From positions 1-31,105 of IMG/VR virus record IMGVR_UViG_3300044956_000800: DNA of 31,105 nt, one strand, 5' to 3'. The position numbers were made by a program, and so were the translations under genes. Positions 5,742 to 11,498 of this stretch are shown here, piece after piece. The notes beneath the pieces are model-generated. The model was given only the letters and a program-made list of their open reading frames with translations, was not told the origin of the DNA and made no database searches. Source of the DNA: a virus. Each line of letters starts with the position of its first letter. Positions within the stretch are counted from its first letter, which is position 1.

Positions 5742-5926
5742 TTAGATTTGATTTTGTATAGTTCTGGCTTAGTCGTTATCTTATTGAGATAATTTTTAGC
5801 GTGATTTAATCCTTCTTTGCTATATGGAAAAACACCATATTGGAAATTATCTTTTTTAGAGATAAGAATATAATACTTCTTTCTTTTAAAGGACTTCTGT
5901 TGTTTGATTTTTCTTTTTTTAGCCAT
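5738..5926 (-). CDS. Hypothetical small basic protein, 62 aa
   Basis: The N-terminal third is almost entirely basic (MAKKRKIKQQKSFKRKKYYI), followed by FQYGVFPYSKEGLNHAKNYL. It may bind nucleic acid through the basic leader, but this rests on composition alone. It overlaps the upstream gene by 8 nt and the downstream gene by 4 nt, inside the ACP operon. Confidence 0.6.
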   Translation of the reverse strand: MAKKRKIKQQKSFKRKKYYILISKKDNFQYGVFPYSKEGLNHAKNYLNKITTKPELYKIKSK

Positions 5927-6239
5927 GGATAATATATTCCACTAAATTTTTCCATTCATTTTTAGTATGTCCAAATACGCTATTATAAGCTACATAATAA
6001 GAATTGTATCTCCACCAACCATCTTCTAAAATATCAGGATCAATATCTAATTCAGAATATAATTCTAAAAGGTTCTTTGTCGGAGAAGTATTTTCTGATG
6101 GTTTTGGGGTAGTCATAACTTTATCCAAATAAATAGTTATTAATTGATTCAACTTTTGATCATCTTCTGATTTTCCATAAAATTTAGCCAATACATATAG
6201 CCTTGGCCTTATTTCATTTCGATTTCGAATTTGATTCAT
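5919..6239 (-). CDS. Hypothetical phage protein, 106 aa, after the ACP gene
   Basis: This soluble protein has an acidic centre (LLELYSELDIDPDILEDGWW) and an aromatic C terminus (YNSYYVAYNSVFGHTKNEW). Its start at 6239 lies inside the last codons of the ACP gene (26-nt overlap), so its expression depends on the ACP message. No family is recognised; a partner role for the ACP is conceivable only from position. Confidence 0.65.
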   Translation of the reverse strand: MNQIRNRNEIRPRLYVLAKFYGKSEDDQKLNQLITIYLDKVMTTPKPSENTSPTKNLLELYSELDIDPDILEDGWWRYNSYYVAYNSVFGHTKNEWKNLVEYIIHG

Positions 6240-6498
6240 CGTTAATTTTCTTATTCAAGAACTCAATAAATTCTCCAAAAGCTTTCATACTAGTTTTCAT
6301 TTCTTCTATCTGCTTGGCATTTTGTATCAACCAAATATTATACTTATCTTCTATTTCCGAGGCTATTGATAATAAAGCGAATGAATCTAAATTAAGGTCT
6401 TCTAAAGAAGTATTCTCTTCGATAGCTATTCCTTTTTTATCTTTTAAAAGTTCATTTCTAATTAAAGTCTTAATTTGTTCTGGATCTACTGTTTTCAT
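6214..6498 (-). CDS. acpP: Acyl carrier protein
   Basis: This 94-aa protein has the acidic four-helix ACP pattern. The carrier motif DLNLDSFALLSIASEIEDKY places the phosphopantetheine acceptor at S39 (after D38), with the acidic recognition helix next to it. The usual DSL is DSF here. A C-terminal extension of about 15 residues is polar. The phage also encodes a holo-ACP synthase (8498-8806) that could load this ACP. The gene has its own promoter (TGGACA-N16-TATAAT, 6 nt before ATG 6498) inside the end of the purA-like gene and leads an operon of five genes. Which acyl or aminoacyl group it carries is unknown. Confidence 0.85.
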   Translation of the reverse strand: MKTVDPEQIKTLIRNELLKDKKGIAIEENTSLEDLNLDSFALLSIASEIEDKYNIWLIQNAKQIEEMKTSMKAFGEFIEFLNKKINDESNSKSK

Positions 6499-6504
6499 AT
6501 TAAT

Positions 6505-6532
6505 ATTATATCAAATACTTTCTTTATGTCCA
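6505..6532 (-). promoter_or_regulatory. Sigma70-type promoter, leaderless for the ACP operon
   Basis: Minus strand: TGGACA (6532-6527), 16-nt spacer, TATAAT (6510-6505), 6 nt to ATG 6498. It overlaps the last codons of the purA-like gene. Confidence 0.7.
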
Positions 6533-7506
6533 GAAAATACTACGTCACAGTATTCTTTTAATTCATTTAAAATATATTGTTTCATATTAGCGAAGTCATT
6601 AAATTTAATGAAATTAGGTCCCGAATTTTCATTATCTGTTTTAAGTTTGAATATATTAAGCTGTTCTAAAATATCGCATTTATTAATTATTAGTTTAGTG
6701 GTTCCAGATATTATAATCGCTTCTTTTAGTTTAGCAAGATTTAACCAATTTGTTATTCTTTTTCTATTAGTTGTTGTTCCATATTCCTTTCCTAGGTCTA
6801 TCAATTTATTTAACTCGTCATCTTGCCAAAGACTTTCTGGAAAAAGCGGATCTACTCCACTTTTGGTATCATATATTTTAGCTACCCCAATAATATCTTT
6901 TATTTTTTTGGGACTAAATCCTAAAGAGCAGGCTGAATAAGGTAATGTTTCACTACTGGTAACATATGGATAGTCTCCATAATTTATATCTAACCAAAAA
7001 CTTTGCGCTCCCTCACACAAGACGCTTCCTTCTAATTTACCATCCCAAATGTATTTTTTATCTAGATAATTTTTAGCTAATTTACCAATCCTTAACATCT
7101 TGTCTCCATATGCGGGAGCTATTCCTTGACCTGTTGTTCCTAACCTGGGTTTTAGAAATTTAAGATCATATCTTATGTGTCTTTCTGTGATTAGATTCGT
7201 CTTTGGACTCACTTTAATTAAAGAAGTATCGAATCCTTCTTTTTGTAAATACTCTATTTCGTCAAAAAATTTATCAATATTAATTACGCAATTTGGCCCA
7301 ATAATTGATTTTTTATTGTGAAATACACCAGAAGGAATAATATGCGTTTTATATTTTTTACCATTTAAATAAACTGTATGCCCTGCATTTGGACCACCAT
7401 TCCAACGACATACATAATCATAGTTTTTAGCTAAAGCGCTTGATATCTTACCTTTTCCTTCATCGCCCCAACAGATACCAAATATAACATCTACATATTC
7501 TATCAT
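6511..7506 (-). CDS. purA: Adenylosuccinate synthetase-family enzyme (PurA / PurZ-like)
   Basis: This 331-aa protein (ATG 7506 in a TAATG overlap; a TTG at 7515 is possible) has the whole PurA core: WGDEGKGK with D15, NAGHT with H43, GTTGQGIAPAYGDK, EGAQSFWLDINYGDYPYVTSS, TTTNRKRI for aspartate binding, and INKCD for guanine of GTP. PurA makes adenylosuccinate from IMP, Asp and GTP. The short length matches archaeal PurA and phage PurZ rather than the roughly 430-aa bacterial enzyme. PurZ acts on dGMP to build 2-aminoadenine DNA and often lacks this Asp, which is retained here. So PurA, or a PurZ0-like enzyme that keeps the Asp, are both open. An IMPDH/GMPR-family gene lies 1.3 kb upstream. 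Confidence 0.88.
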   Translation of the reverse strand: MIEYVDVIFGICWGDEGKGKISSALAKNYDYVCRWNGGPNAGHTVYLNGKKYKTHIIPSGVFHNKKSIIGPNCVINIDKFFDEIEYLQKEGFDTSLIKVSPKTNLITERHIRYDLKFLKPRLGTTGQGIAPAYGDKMLRIGKLAKNYLDKKYIWDGKLEGSVLCEGAQSFWLDINYGDYPYVTSSETLPYSACSLGFSPKKIKDIIGVAKIYDTKSGVDPLFPESLWQDDELNKLIDLGKEYGTTTNRKRITNWLNLAKLKEAIIISGTTKLIINKCDILEQLNIFKLKTDNENSGPNFIKFNDFANMKQYILNELKEYCDVVFSGHKESI

Positions 7507-7724
7507 TATTCGCAATCGTAAATCCTATTAGGATTTCTAATATCAAAAATACTTACATTTTGTTCTATTTTTTCATTAATAATAGATAATGTTTCATGAT
7601 CAATTACCTTATTAACGATTCCGCAATAGCCTTCGTCTAGAAGAGAGTTGACGACTATGAATACTCTTTTTCCTATCATCTTTTTCAAGATGTTTATTTT
7701 AGTTTTCTTTAATATTGAATCCAT
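7506..7724 (-). CDS. Small phage protein with an SH3-like segment, before purA
   Basis: This 72-aa protein contains the segment MIGKRVFIVVNSLLDEGYCG followed by IVNKVIDHETLSI and VSIFDIRNP. It looks like a small beta barrel and resembles short phage proteins I have seen with KVFI ... EGICG ... SIFDVR. It has no known function. Its stop overlaps the purA-like start (TAATG), so the two are coupled. A TTGATT-N17-TAATAT promoter stands 6 nt before its ATG. Confidence 0.7.
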   Translation of the reverse strand: MDSILKKTKINILKKMIGKRVFIVVNSLLDEGYCGIVNKVIDHETLSIINEKIEQNVSIFDIRNPNRIYDCE

Positions 7725-7730
7725 AATTAT

Positions 7731-7759
7731 ATATTATCCTTGATTTTAACAAAAATCAA
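7731..7759 (-). promoter_or_regulatory. Sigma70-type promoter, leaderless for the 72-aa protein / purA pair
   Basis: Minus strand: TTGATT (7759-7754), 17-nt spacer, TAATAT (7736-7731), 6 nt to ATG 7724. The -35 lies in the last codons of the phosphohydrolase gene. Confidence 0.65.
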
Positions 7760-8408
7760 GCTTAATATTGCCTTTTTTATCTATTGTTAAATAACTACAA
7801 GTTTCTTCACAAAAACTGCCTAAATTAATATATTCATTTGATACTTCTGCAACGTGAGTATGACCACAAATCACTTGATTAAAATTATTCTTATCAATAT
7901 ATACTAAAGCATTTTCCTTTACTTTGGAGCTTTTTTCTATAAAAGAATTTGATTTACCCTTAAAGATGCTAAAAAAATCATCTGCAAATGGGGTATGTTT
8001 TCTCACAAAATAATATAATTTAATAATAATATTTGTCATTATTTTATATTTAGTAAAATATATATCAAATATATCTCCATGCACAATTAAAATTTTATTA
8101 TTTTTATATTGTATAATATAATCATTTTTACATTTAAACCCCAAAAGAATACTCATAAACTCGGCTTTTAAAAAACAATGATTTCCAATCAAATATATGA
8201 TTTCTGATTTTTTACTTAATTTCCTCAATTTTGAAAGAACTTTCCAGTGATCTTTATTTAGTCTGCGCAAATTATGATGATCGAAAAGATCACCTGCAAT
8301 TATAATTTTATTTGCTTTAATTTTTTTAAGTATTTTTAATAATTTGGCAGCTTTACAACTTTTAGATCCTAGGTGAACATCTGAAAATATTAAAATATCC
8401 GTTTTCAT
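7746..8408 (-). CDS. Metallophosphoesterase, LpxH-like (UDP-2,3-diacylglucosamine hydrolase family)
   Basis: This 220-aa calcineurin-like phosphoesterase shows the metal-binding motifs in order: SDVHLG (D10, H12), AGDLFDHHNLRR (D40), GNHC (N76, H77), IVHGDIFD and CGHTHVAE. The D-HHNLRR wording after GDLFD is close to the LpxH/YbbF family, which hydrolyses UDP-diacylglucosamine in lipid A synthesis. The usual GNHD is GNHC here. The residue after GNH is often Asp or Glu, so activity may differ. Nearby ACP and AcpS make an envelope-lipid role attractive, but a nucleotide phosphohydrolase is equally possible. No clear promoter or Shine-Dalgarno is visible upstream. Confidence 0.8.
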   Translation of the reverse strand: MKTDILIFSDVHLGSKSCKAAKLLKILKKIKANKIIIAGDLFDHHNLRRLNKDHWKVLSKLRKLSKKSEIIYLIGNHCFLKAEFMSILLGFKCKNDYIIQYKNNKILIVHGDIFDIYFTKYKIMTNIIIKLYYFVRKHTPFADDFFSIFKGKSNSFIEKSSKVKENALVYIDKNNFNQVICGHTHVAEVSNEYINLGSFCEETCSYLTIDKKGNIKLDFC

Positions 8409-8497
8409 TACAGATCAATAAAATTAGGTCGAAATGAATTTGTGTTTGTAGAGTTTTTTGCTATTGCTAGATTTGTAATTTTATTTTTTTAAAAAAA

Positions 8498-8806
8498 TTA
8501 AACATTTTTAAAAACTATTGCTGTCGCATAGTCTCCGTCATGACTAATAGAAATCATACAATCTATATTTTTGCCATCTATTAATATTGAGGGCTTTTTA
8601 TTAATCGTTAATATTTCTATCTCTTTATTTATCTTTAAGATCCCAGCTTTATATGCTGCTTCTTTTGCAGCCCATTTTCCAGCTAATTTTTCATGAATAT
8701 TATTAGCCTTTGTCTCAGCGATTTCTCTTTGAGAGAAGACTTTTTCTATGAAAGATTTAGACTTATTTTTAAGTCTATTTATATTAAATATATCTATACC
8801 AATCAT
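8498..8806 (-). CDS. acpS: Holo-[acyl carrier protein] synthase
   Basis: This 102-aa protein is a short but complete AcpS: N-terminal GIDIFNINRL with Mg ligand D5, the helix GKWAAKEAAYKAG with Mg ligand E49, and the C-terminal strand ISISHDGDYATAIV. AcpS transfers 4'-phosphopantetheine from CoA to the serine of an ACP. The natural partner is the phage ACP at 6214-6498. Bacterial AcpS is usually about 120-125 aa, so this is slightly trimmed. It starts 3 nt after the IMPDH/GMPR-family gene ends and is the last gene of the long operon from 11960. Confidence 0.9.
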   Translation of the reverse strand: MIGIDIFNINRLKNKSKSFIEKVFSQREIAETKANNIHEKLAGKWAAKEAAYKAGILKINKEIEILTINKKPSILIDGKNIDCMISISHDGDYATAIVFKNV

Positions 8807-8808
8807 AT

Positions 8809-9915
8809 TTATTTACCGTGAGCAAAACTTTCATACATACTATTAGGACTTACTTTCACTACTTTTATTTTATTTGTCCAAATTCCACCTCTAATTTCTT
8901 CTATTGATCTAAAACCAAGATAACTCATGGCGCTTCTCAATCCATTTGCAAAATCATAAACAACATCTTCTAAAGTTTTATCTTTTAATAAGGGAATTAA
9001 AGTTCTATCCCCTTCGACAAAAAGATTCTTTTTTGTTCCATCGTAAAGCTCGTAATCTTCCACTACGTCTTTACTTGCCATGCCTCTATATTTGGCAAAT
9101 AGTTTCCCATCTTTTTCTATAATATTCTCCTCATCAACAACATCAGCGATACCCGCAAAAATTCTACCGCAGATAACTCCATCTGCTCCGCTTGCAATAG
9201 CCTTTACAAGATCTCTAGGATTTCTAATTCCTCCATCAGCTAAAATGCTTGGCCTGTTCTCTTCTTTTGGATGTTCATGTCGAAAATAATCTAGATTTGC
9301 TAATTGAAAATTTCTTACTGCTTTCCAAGCATAATACAATCCTGTTACGCTTGGGCAACCTATGCCTGTTTTAATTTGTGTCAAACACATACTTCCTGGA
9401 CCAATGAGGTGTCTAAAACCATCTGCTTCTAAATTCGCTAAACGATAAACACTTTCTTTTGTTAAAGTATTTCCAACGATAATATCTTGAGTATAGCTAG
9501 ATTGTTTGTACCATATCAGAAAATCTTCTACATTTTGTGATAATCCATTCGCTGTATCCAAAAAGAATATGTCTGTATATTGAGATATAATTGGTAGTCT
9601 AGTCTGAAAATCTTTTAGTCCAATTGCATTAATGCAAAAATTACTTTCATCTTTAATATATTTTGCTTTTTTAGCTTGTTGTTCTGGAGTCATGAATCTG
9701 TGAAGAACTCCTGCACCTCCAATCTGATTTATTTTAATGCATGGTTTAACAGATGAAACTGTATCCATTGGAGAAAGGATAATAGGGATATCTATATACT
9801 TATTTTTCGAAATTTTCGTGATCGTGCTGACTTCTTTTCTAGATGAAATATTAGAAAAGTTTGGCAACAATGCTATATCATCGTATCCTAATCCGTCTTC
9901 TATATGTATTTTCAT
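8809..9915 (-). CDS. IMP dehydrogenase / GMP reductase family enzyme (GMPR-like)
   Basis: This 368-aa TIM barrel has no CBS pair. It starts DGLGYDDIALLP and contains ILSPMD, the catalytic loop GPGSMCLTQIKTGIGCP with C177 and T179, LADGGIRNPRDLVKAIASGA and GADGVICG. After YRGMAS there is no Arg-Tyr pair like the IMPDH flap dyad, which argues for GMP reductase (GMP to IMP). However, the Glu expected in GMPR after MSS is Lys here, and the C-terminal ESFAHGK recalls the ESHPH end of IMPDH. Direction therefore stays open. With PurA it could turn GMP into AMP. It starts 1 nt after the stop of the 102-aa gene. Confidence 0.85.
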   Translation of the reverse strand: MKIHIEDGLGYDDIALLPNFSNISSRKEVSTITKISKNKYIDIPIILSPMDTVSSVKPCIKINQIGGAGVLHRFMTPEQQAKKAKYIKDESNFCINAIGLKDFQTRLPIISQYTDIFFLDTANGLSQNVEDFLIWYKQSSYTQDIIVGNTLTKESVYRLANLEADGFRHLIGPGSMCLTQIKTGIGCPSVTGLYYAWKAVRNFQLANLDYFRHEHPKEENRPSILADGGIRNPRDLVKAIASGADGVICGRIFAGIADVVDEENIIEKDGKLFAKYRGMASKDVVEDYELYDGTKKNLFVEGDRTLIPLLKDKTLEDVVYDFANGLRSAMSYLGFRSIEEIRGGIWTNKIKVVKVSPNSMYESFAHGK

Positions 9916-9916
9916 A

Positions 9917-10225
9917 TTAAAACTCTAAAATCGATCCATCTTTCTTTTTTAAATGTATTATTTTTGCTTGCTCTTCTTTCTTTATTTTAAGAATTTCGTC
10001 AGGTAAAAGAAATTTATCAAGATTATCTTTGATATTATCTAAAAATGCAATATTATTTTTATTGCAAGGGCAATTTGGTTTTTGTCCAACCTTTTGATAA
10101 ATATCACAATAAATTGGAAGCTGACCATCGTTTCCTTTAAGGTTATAAGAATGTATTATCACAACCAATTCCCAATGGTGTTCAATTAAAAGAATATCTT
10201 TGTTTTTATCTATTTCTTCATTCAT
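9917..10225 (-). CDS. Hypothetical phage protein, 102 aa, with a CPC motif
   Basis: The protein has a short N-terminal domain (HHWELVVIIHSYNLKGNDGQ) and three cysteines (YCDIYQKVGQKPNCPC), then a charged helical C terminus. It overlaps the upstream gene by 8 nt. A TATTAT hexamer stands 6 nt before its ATG, but the -35 is poor. It belongs to the operon carrying the GMPR-like gene and acpS. Function is unknown. Confidence 0.7.
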   Translation of the reverse strand: MNEEIDKNKDILLIEHHWELVVIIHSYNLKGNDGQLPIYCDIYQKVGQKPNCPCNKNNIAFLDNIKDNLDKFLLPDEILKIKKEEQAKIIHLKKKDGSILEF

Positions 10226-10559
10226 ATTTTGATAATATATTTACTATCTTATAGTATACCAAACTTGAGACATAAATTAAAGCAAAAAATTTATATCCTA
10301 CAAAAAAACTAGTAACAATGGATAACCAAAAATTTAAACAAAATGGACAGGTAATCAGCCTAATAAAAAAACAATTGTAGTTTAATCTTAAAAAATTTAT
10401 GAAATCCGTATTTAATCCAGCAATAGTTGATTTTTCATGCTGATGAATGATTTTATTTAGAAGTGGAAAACTTTTAAAATACTCAATAAAAGCATCGGTT
10501 TTAAACCATACTAATAATAATAGGGTATTAAAAAAAGAAAATAAAAATGCCTCGATCAT
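10218..10559 (-). CDS. Membrane protein with a CPFCLNFW motif
   Basis: This 113-aa protein has three hydrophobic stretches: residues about 1-20 (MIEAFLFSFFNTLLLLVWF), 67-90 (LITCPFCLNFWLSIVTSFFV) and 93-108. The CPFC pair is next to or inside the second segment and followed by NFW. Such C-x-x-C-x-x-x-W motifs occur in small uncharacterised membrane proteins of bacteria and phages (DUF1360-like, from memory) and might bind metal or form a disulfide. It overlaps the secreted repeat protein's stop (ATGA) and is likely expressed together with it. Confidence 0.75.
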   Translation of the reverse strand: MIEAFLFSFFNTLLLLVWFKTDAFIEYFKSFPLLNKIIHQHEKSTIAGLNTDFINFLRLNYNCFFIRLITCPFCLNFWLSIVTSFFVGYKFFALIYVSSLVYYKIVNILSKYE

Positions 10560-11071
10560 TCTGGACTTTCTGCTGAATAGGCGGCTTTTTTATCAGATCT
10601 TAAAGATCTTGTATATGTATATCCATTTTCAATAATTTCTGGATTATTAATGAGCTTCGTATCAAAATCGCTATTTTTATAACTATAGCGATTGTTACTC
10701 AGGTTTTTATCAACTCCATTTTCTAGTGAATCTTTTCTACAATCTAAATCTGATATATATCTATCGGGAAATTGTCTTGGATACACGCTATTCGTAGATG
10801 TAGTCCTATAAACTCCCCATTGTTGAGAAGAAGTATAAGTGTTTTGTTTTCTGACTATGTAAGTAGGAAAAATTCGATGAAAAATTGTATTCGTACCCAA
10901 ACTATCATACAACCAATATTCATTATCATTCATTTTCCTAATTGTCATAGATGGAAATTGCCTTGGATATACGCTGTTTGTACCGAATGTTCTTGTTATT
11001 GTAGCTTCTTCTCTTTGGCTAAAAGAATTAGATGATAAAAATAATAAAGTTAAAAATAAAAATTTATACAT
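10556..11071 (-). CDS. Secreted protein with three YPRQFP-type repeats
   Basis: This 171-aa protein starts at ATG 11071, which overlaps the dUTPase-like stop and has a strong GGAGGAG ribosome site 7 nt upstream. A further upstream ATG (11089) would add a charged leader and is not favoured. Residues 1-19 (MYKFLFLTLLFLSSNSFSQ) form a signal peptide. The mature part has three repeats of about 17 residues: GTNSVYPRQFPSMTIRK (30-46), GTNTIFHRIFPTYIVRK (59-75) and STNSVYPRQFPDRYISD (92-108). The C-terminal 60 residues are polar. It would act in the periplasm or outside the cell. I do not recognise the family. Confidence 0.8.
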   Translation of the reverse strand: MYKFLFLTLLFLSSNSFSQREEATITRTFGTNSVYPRQFPSMTIRKMNDNEYWLYDSLGTNTIFHRIFPTYIVRKQNTYTSSQQWGVYRTTSTNSVYPRQFPDRYISDLDCRKDSLENGVDKNLSNNRYSYKNSDFDTKLINNPEIIENGYTYTRSLRSDKKAAYSAESPE

Positions 11072-11498
11072 TAGTTTCTCCTCCATCAAATAAATAAATA
11101 TTTATAGGACTTAGAATCATATTCGCTATCTTATCTCCAACATAAACATCTATCCTAGTTCTTTCTCCTAAAAATCTTTCATTATCTGACATCATATAGG
11201 GGCTTTTTGGTATATTACCATTAGTTACCATTATAAGCAACTCTTTTTTTTCTTTAGGTAAGATTATATCTTGAAATACGTGCAATCCATTCCTAATATA
11301 GTTTTCTTTCCTTGGCAAAATTATTCCAACATACCCTTCTGGAATTTCTATTTCTATAAACGTTTTAATTAATCTTCTTTCTCCTGGAGAAATACAGCAT
11401 CTTTCGCCGCTTGAAATGCTATAGATAGCATTATTAAATTCGTTTGTAGGTTTTTTGCCTTTATTATGAAGTGATTTAAATTTAATTATCGGATTCAT
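11064..11498 (-). CDS. dUTPase-like protein with degenerate catalytic motif
   Basis: This 144-aa protein follows the dUTPase/dCTP deaminase fold order: a PGERRLIKTFIEIEIPEGYV strand pair, GIILPRKENYIRNGLHVF (motif II position) and GDKIANMILSPI (motif IV). In true dUTPases motif II is PRSG and motif III carries the G-V-I-D-x-x-Y catalytic Asp. Here the Ser is Lys, and the motif III region reads HVFQDIILPKEKKELLIMV with only a displaced Asp. The activity may be changed or lost. It overlaps dCMP deaminase by 17 nt, and dCMP deaminase and dUTPase normally act together to make dUMP, so a pyrimidine-related or regulatory role fits. Confidence 0.75.
   Translation of the reverse strand: MNPIIKFKSLHNKGKKPTNEFNNAIYSISSGERCCISPGERRLIKTFIEIEIPEGYVGIILPRKENYIRNGLHVFQDIILPKEKKELLIMVTNGNIPKSPYMMSDNERFLGERTRIDVYVGDKIANMILSPINIYLFDGGETNV

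Follow-up and report, generated by a model that had tools for sequence, protein, structure and literature searches.

Acyl carrier proteins (ACPs) have been annotated in phage genomes for over a decade without a function being attached to them. Small carrier proteins comparable to the one described here are encoded as orphans by Erythrobacter phage R6L (PMC5463345), Vibrio phage R16F (PMC10152775) and Alteromonas phage R22Y (PMC11705849), as well as by Xanthomonas phiXF1 and Brevundimonas Bajun; single phage ACPs are also present in PHROGs. A carrier accompanied by its activating enzyme is known from the cyanophages P-HM1 and P-HM2, for which an ACP and its synthetase, with no function assigned to them, were reported by Sullivan et al. 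in 2010 (PMC3037559). In the genome of P-HM1, a T4-like cyanophage, the ACP gene (PF00550) is ~22 kb from that of a 4'-phosphopantetheinyl transferase (PF01648).

The DNA considered here is a 31-kb IMG/VR virus record (the window, by which we mean the whole stretch analysed). Like P-HM1 and P-HM2, it encodes a carrier protein together with a phosphopantetheinyl transferase. Phages with a carrier and an activator were thus already known, and an earlier sequence-only reading, which held that no described phage system has exactly this set, put the matter too strongly. What survives of that statement concerns the type of enzyme: the P-HM1 transferase could not be aligned to the window AcpS and, to judge from its sequence, looks Sfp-type rather than AcpS. 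The P-HM1 ACP also differs from that of the window, being a canonical ACP of DSLD type that carries a C-terminal tail. What is new is the AcpS-type pair, found in the window clade and in several unrelated uncultivated phages. A tblastn search of 50,697 phage records for AcpS-type enzymes returned only unannotated contigs and bacterial-looking records; the isolated phages with orphan ACPs differ from the window in that no AcpS was found in them by this search. The contents of the phage-labelled records OR84xxxx and MW495066 (Microcystis phage MaAM05) look like bacterial DNA, and the acpS of MaAM05, whose neighbours are secDF, scpAB and smc, was for that reason not accepted as a phage gene.

The operon lies on the minus strand of the window. 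In reading order it encodes a dCMP deaminase, a dUTPase-like protein, p175, a DUF1360-like protein, p102, an enzyme of the IMPDH/GMP reductase type and AcpS, followed by a metallophosphoesterase, p72, PurA, ACP, p106, p62, p80 and p89. The ACP, AcpS and calcineurin-fold genes that had been noticed together in a 2.6-kb stretch are all present there as intact ORFs, and each matches its assigned family. Relatives retain all three, at median dN/dS values of 0.23, 0.20 and 0.11, respectively, and their presence is therefore not a matter of chance.

The ACP (6214..6498, minus strand) is a protein of 94 aa with a phosphopantetheine site at S39, within the sequence NLDSF. It matches the Pfam PP-binding family above the curated cut-off (PF00550, E 1.6e-4; 22.3 bits against 20.8), and the ACPs of some relatives score below that cut-off. 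The AF2 model has four helices, of which helix II (residues 39-53) begins at S39, and nearly all the structures that match it best are carrier proteins, with Z up to 9.7. AcpM and other free-standing specialised carrier proteins are among the best matches in both sequence and fold; unlike these, the phage ACP has a gene that travels with that of a dedicated synthase.

This synthase, an AcpS-type holo-ACP synthase (8498..8806, minus strand), is compact, at 102 aa. It exceeds the cut-offs of PF01648 (E 1.3e-11; 44.9 against 25 bits) and TIGR00556 (56.8 against 45.35 bits), and falls under that of the acpS equivalog TIGR00516 (36.9 against 59.8), which the AcpS of a distant sister lineage passes at 89.1. 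The window protein matches solved AcpS structures, and its metal-binding residues D5 and E49 correspond in an alignment to D8 and E58 in Bacillus subtilis AcpS (1f80). The two enzymes share fold family and catalytic residues and are ~33% identical, the phage protein being ~20 residues shorter. Searches of GTDB genomes found neither cellular relatives of the window AcpS nor host-binned contigs of the phage.

The distribution of the two genes was followed in 81 PurA-bearing viral loci, namely the window and 80 loci obtained from an IMG/VR search with PurA. AcpS occurs in 13 of them, the window included, all in one clade of large uncultivated phages. The ACP is present in every one of the 12 AcpS contigs that reach its site, i.e. 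that extend past PurA; the contig of L081 stops inside PurA and was left out of this count. Neither gene occurs in any other locus of the set, and profile scans with ACP or AcpS added to these contigs no more than a single weak record. Among larger relatives that are ACP-negative, eight of 87-172 kb had no match to PF00550 or PF01648. On the PurA tree, the ACP contigs group together save for L060, which has a long branch; pairing within the group therefore counts as approximately one evolutionary event. Ser39 of the ACP and D5, K48 and E49 of AcpS are invariant among relatives, so that neither the phosphopantetheine site nor the metal ligands, the loss of which had been named as grounds for refutation, have disappeared in homologues. 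ACP and AcpS are a conserved pair under purifying selection, and the proposal of a dedicated ACP with its own activating enzyme holds insofar as the two are always together in the clade with catalytic residues intact. Co-inheritance of the carrier with its activating enzyme, in one whole clade and in unrelated lineages, implies that the phosphopantetheine arm is important for the phage.

We consider it just probable that ACP and AcpS form a self-sufficient module of two genes, making a specialised holo-carrier independently of the host AcpS. On the evidence of family and residues, Ser39 of the phage ACP would receive 4'-phosphopantetheine from CoA through the action of the phage AcpS, and the phage would thus have no need to rely on recognition of a divergent carrier by the host AcpS. 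The holo-ACP may then bear an acyl or aminoacyl thioester and pass its cargo to a phage-specific acceptor. In the window clade, no loading, adenylating or condensing enzyme was found in fragments of up to 47 kb, and searches with PF00501 and PF00109 gave no match. As these incomplete genomes yielded no loading or transfer enzyme over the length sequenced, such an enzyme would be a host enzyme, an unrecognised protein, or one encoded in a part of the genome not yet seen. That no loader, condensing enzyme or acceptor was found in the window lineage over this length counts against the module.

The first candidate for an unrecognised partner would be p106, a 106-aa helical protein (5919..6239, minus strand; AF2 pLDDT 78) that is coupled to the ACP. 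Its gene follows the ACP gene directly and overlaps its 3' end in each of the 11 ACP contigs extending that far, and it was found only in the ACP clade. It evolves faster than ACP and AcpS (dN/dS ~0.46), and a fold search gave no PDB match below E 1. The small proteins downstream of the ACP had been put forward collectively as candidate partners; this stands for the 106-aa protein, which is ACP-specific, but not for those of 62 and 80 aa, since p62, p80 and p95 belong to the phage family in general.

A broader AcpS scan of IMG/VR found AcpS with a carrier protein in other, unrelated phage lineages. In the distant sister lineage (L163, L164, L166 and L167), AcpS, a 75-aa protein and ACP are adjacent, and neither PurA nor the phosphoesterase separates AcpS from ACP; the 75-aa protein shows no similarity to p106. 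This lineage shares with that of the window a glycosyltransferase, rIIA-like, clamp-loader-like and other genes. In L176, L179 and L180, the genes for an AMP-binding enzyme of the ANL type, a free carrier and AcpS stand in a row (L176:4009-6402). The L176 contig, of 316 kb, in which the adenylation enzyme comes directly before the carrier, also encodes a terminase and the Gp23 capsid protein. The gene row of this jumbo phage, as of L179 and L180, reads as a self-contained loading system. In L171 and L181, a ketoacyl synthase gene overlaps the ACP gene (L181:9446-10875, L171:6628-7985), with AcpS a few kb upstream. L174, L175, L177 and L178 group AcpS with a radical SAM gene, a gene resembling a fatty acid desaturase and an ACP of the canonical FAS type (L174:3917-6309). 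ACP and AcpS are close together in L170 and in L172/L173, and the T4-like contigs L165/L168/L169 and L190/L191 carry AcpS too. L154 and L156-L161 were rejected as phage AcpS, being of cellular type and most lying near genes like pdxJ, recO and era. Several contigs of the wider scan had no terminase or Gp23 match on their sequenced part, and their viral nature therefore rests on the classification made by IMG/VR itself. The AcpS tree has long branches, and the number of acquisitions is not settled by it.

The matching chemistry in three unrelated lineages with AcpS and a carrier (adenylation enzyme, ketoacyl synthase and desaturase) counts in favour of the two-gene module. The presence of AcpS without a visible PP-binding protein in L155 and L162, on contigs of 29 kb and 142 kb, counts against it. 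A wider reading, which we put forward tentatively as a possibility, is that phages have repeatedly gained self-activating carrier systems for phage-specific acyl or aminoacyl modification, consisting of a carrier and AcpS and, in some lineages, also an adenylation enzyme or ketoacyl synthase, and that the window lineage uses its ACP and p106 in this way. The adenylation enzyme or ketoacyl synthase that neighbours the pair in some lineages makes the question of the cargo directly testable.

One of these lineages bears on whether the phage ACP, once activated by the phage AcpS, might instead feed the fatty-acid or phospholipid pathway of the host during infection. Such auxiliary metabolism would be in keeping with the Roseobacter prophages that carry acpP-fabF-fabG (PMC8224337), and with the phage lineage in which a canonical ACP is paired with a fatty acid desaturase and AcpS. 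However, the window ACP is far below the cut-off of the FAS-ACP equivalog TIGR00517 (24.7 bits against 70.45), which the desaturase-linked phage ACP passes (85.7), and no ketoacyl synthase was found in the window lineage or its larger relatives. We regard this role as unlikely for the window. The difference between the two phage ACPs on this model suggests that the window ACP is a specialised carrier, unlike the fatty-acid ACP of the host.

Alternatively, the holo-ACP could deliver no acyl group and have a binding, structural or regulatory role, either as part of the virion or attached to an enzyme of the host or phage. An ACP has been detected by mass spectrometry among the virion proteins of Erwinia jumbo phages (PMC7760394), and orphan ACP genes in other phages lie beside the major capsid gene or between the gyrase genes. 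A purely structural role would, however, need no dedicated AcpS unless the prosthetic group matters, and in other lineages thioester enzymes are found beside the carrier; we rate a structural role as rather improbable.

The metallophosphoesterase (7746..8408, minus strand; 220 aa, PF00149 E 1.1e-13) is a neighbour of the pair only. The sequence-only reading had described it as LpxH-like and had grouped it with ACP and AcpS, naming lipid A or phospholipid remodelling among its options; the phosphoesterase would then act as LpxH. The genes are indeed adjacent in the window, and the top NCBIfam match of the phosphoesterase is an LpxH model. The score is nevertheless only 46.8 bits against a cut-off of 134, and a second LpxH equivalog gives 33.8 against 190.35. 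LpxH has a GNR motif in place of GNH. GNH, not GNR, is present in all 36 homologues in which the motif could be read. The phosphoesterase also occurs in 24 PurA loci that have neither ACP nor AcpS, often far from PurA, and is missing from L008, which has both. A unit of three genes is not supported by this distribution: it is the pair that is conserved in relatives, not the trio. The phosphoesterase is not LpxH and is outside the ACP module. No acyltransferase of the LpxA or LpxD type was noticed, and we consider lipid remodelling by the three proteins extremely unlikely.

Two purine enzymes are likewise neighbours only: a PurA-like adenylosuccinate synthetase (6511..7503, minus strand; PF00709 E 1e-79) and an IMPDH/GMP reductase-type enzyme without CBS domains (8809..9915, minus strand; PF00478 E 6e-64). 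As they share an operon with the carrier, the latter might, together with them, supply a group with which purine nucleotides or DNA are modified. Yet PurA and the IMPDH-type enzyme are found in ~60 loci without ACP or AcpS, and the sister lineage has ACP and AcpS without PurA on the contigs seen. The window PurA, moreover, retains its catalytic Asp and scores 103 against the cut-off of 300 of NF038379, the model for PurZ of the 2-aminoadenine pathway, and so does not qualify as PurZ; the WGDEGK motif is kept in 80 of 81 relatives. Nucleotide or DNA modification is on these grounds very unlikely. If the two-gene module is correct, as we think just probable, the phosphoesterase and purine enzymes have the operon in common with ACP and AcpS, and not the function. 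The IMPDH Arg-Tyr dyad is missing from the flap of the IMPDH-type enzyme in 71 of the 73 relatives examined, and this enzyme and PurA may together turn G into A nucleotides for a phage genome of 30% GC.

Other products of the operon and its relatives have features of their own. The p175 protein (10556-11083) is predicted to be secreted and has three TN(S/T)(V/I)(Y/F)xRxFP repeats that are strictly conserved within the ACP clade; a secreted repeat family resembling it is present in ACP-negative relatives. A CxCNKN motif is conserved in p102 (9917-10225), and small CxC proteins like it are found at nearby places in ACP-negative relatives; p102 was rejected as a partner of the ACP, the look-alike CxC family being present in many of these. 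A small SEC-C-like zinc protein (FKKCCG) directly precedes PurA in L007 (9787-10014) and in 55 other ACP-negative loci, and is absent from the ACP clade. Lastly, PurA/p72 and the phosphoesterase are separated in L058 (contig G009; L122:2971-4481) by an insertion that encodes a GNAT acetyltransferase and a 361-aa protein, ATP-grasp-like in look and with no Pfam match.
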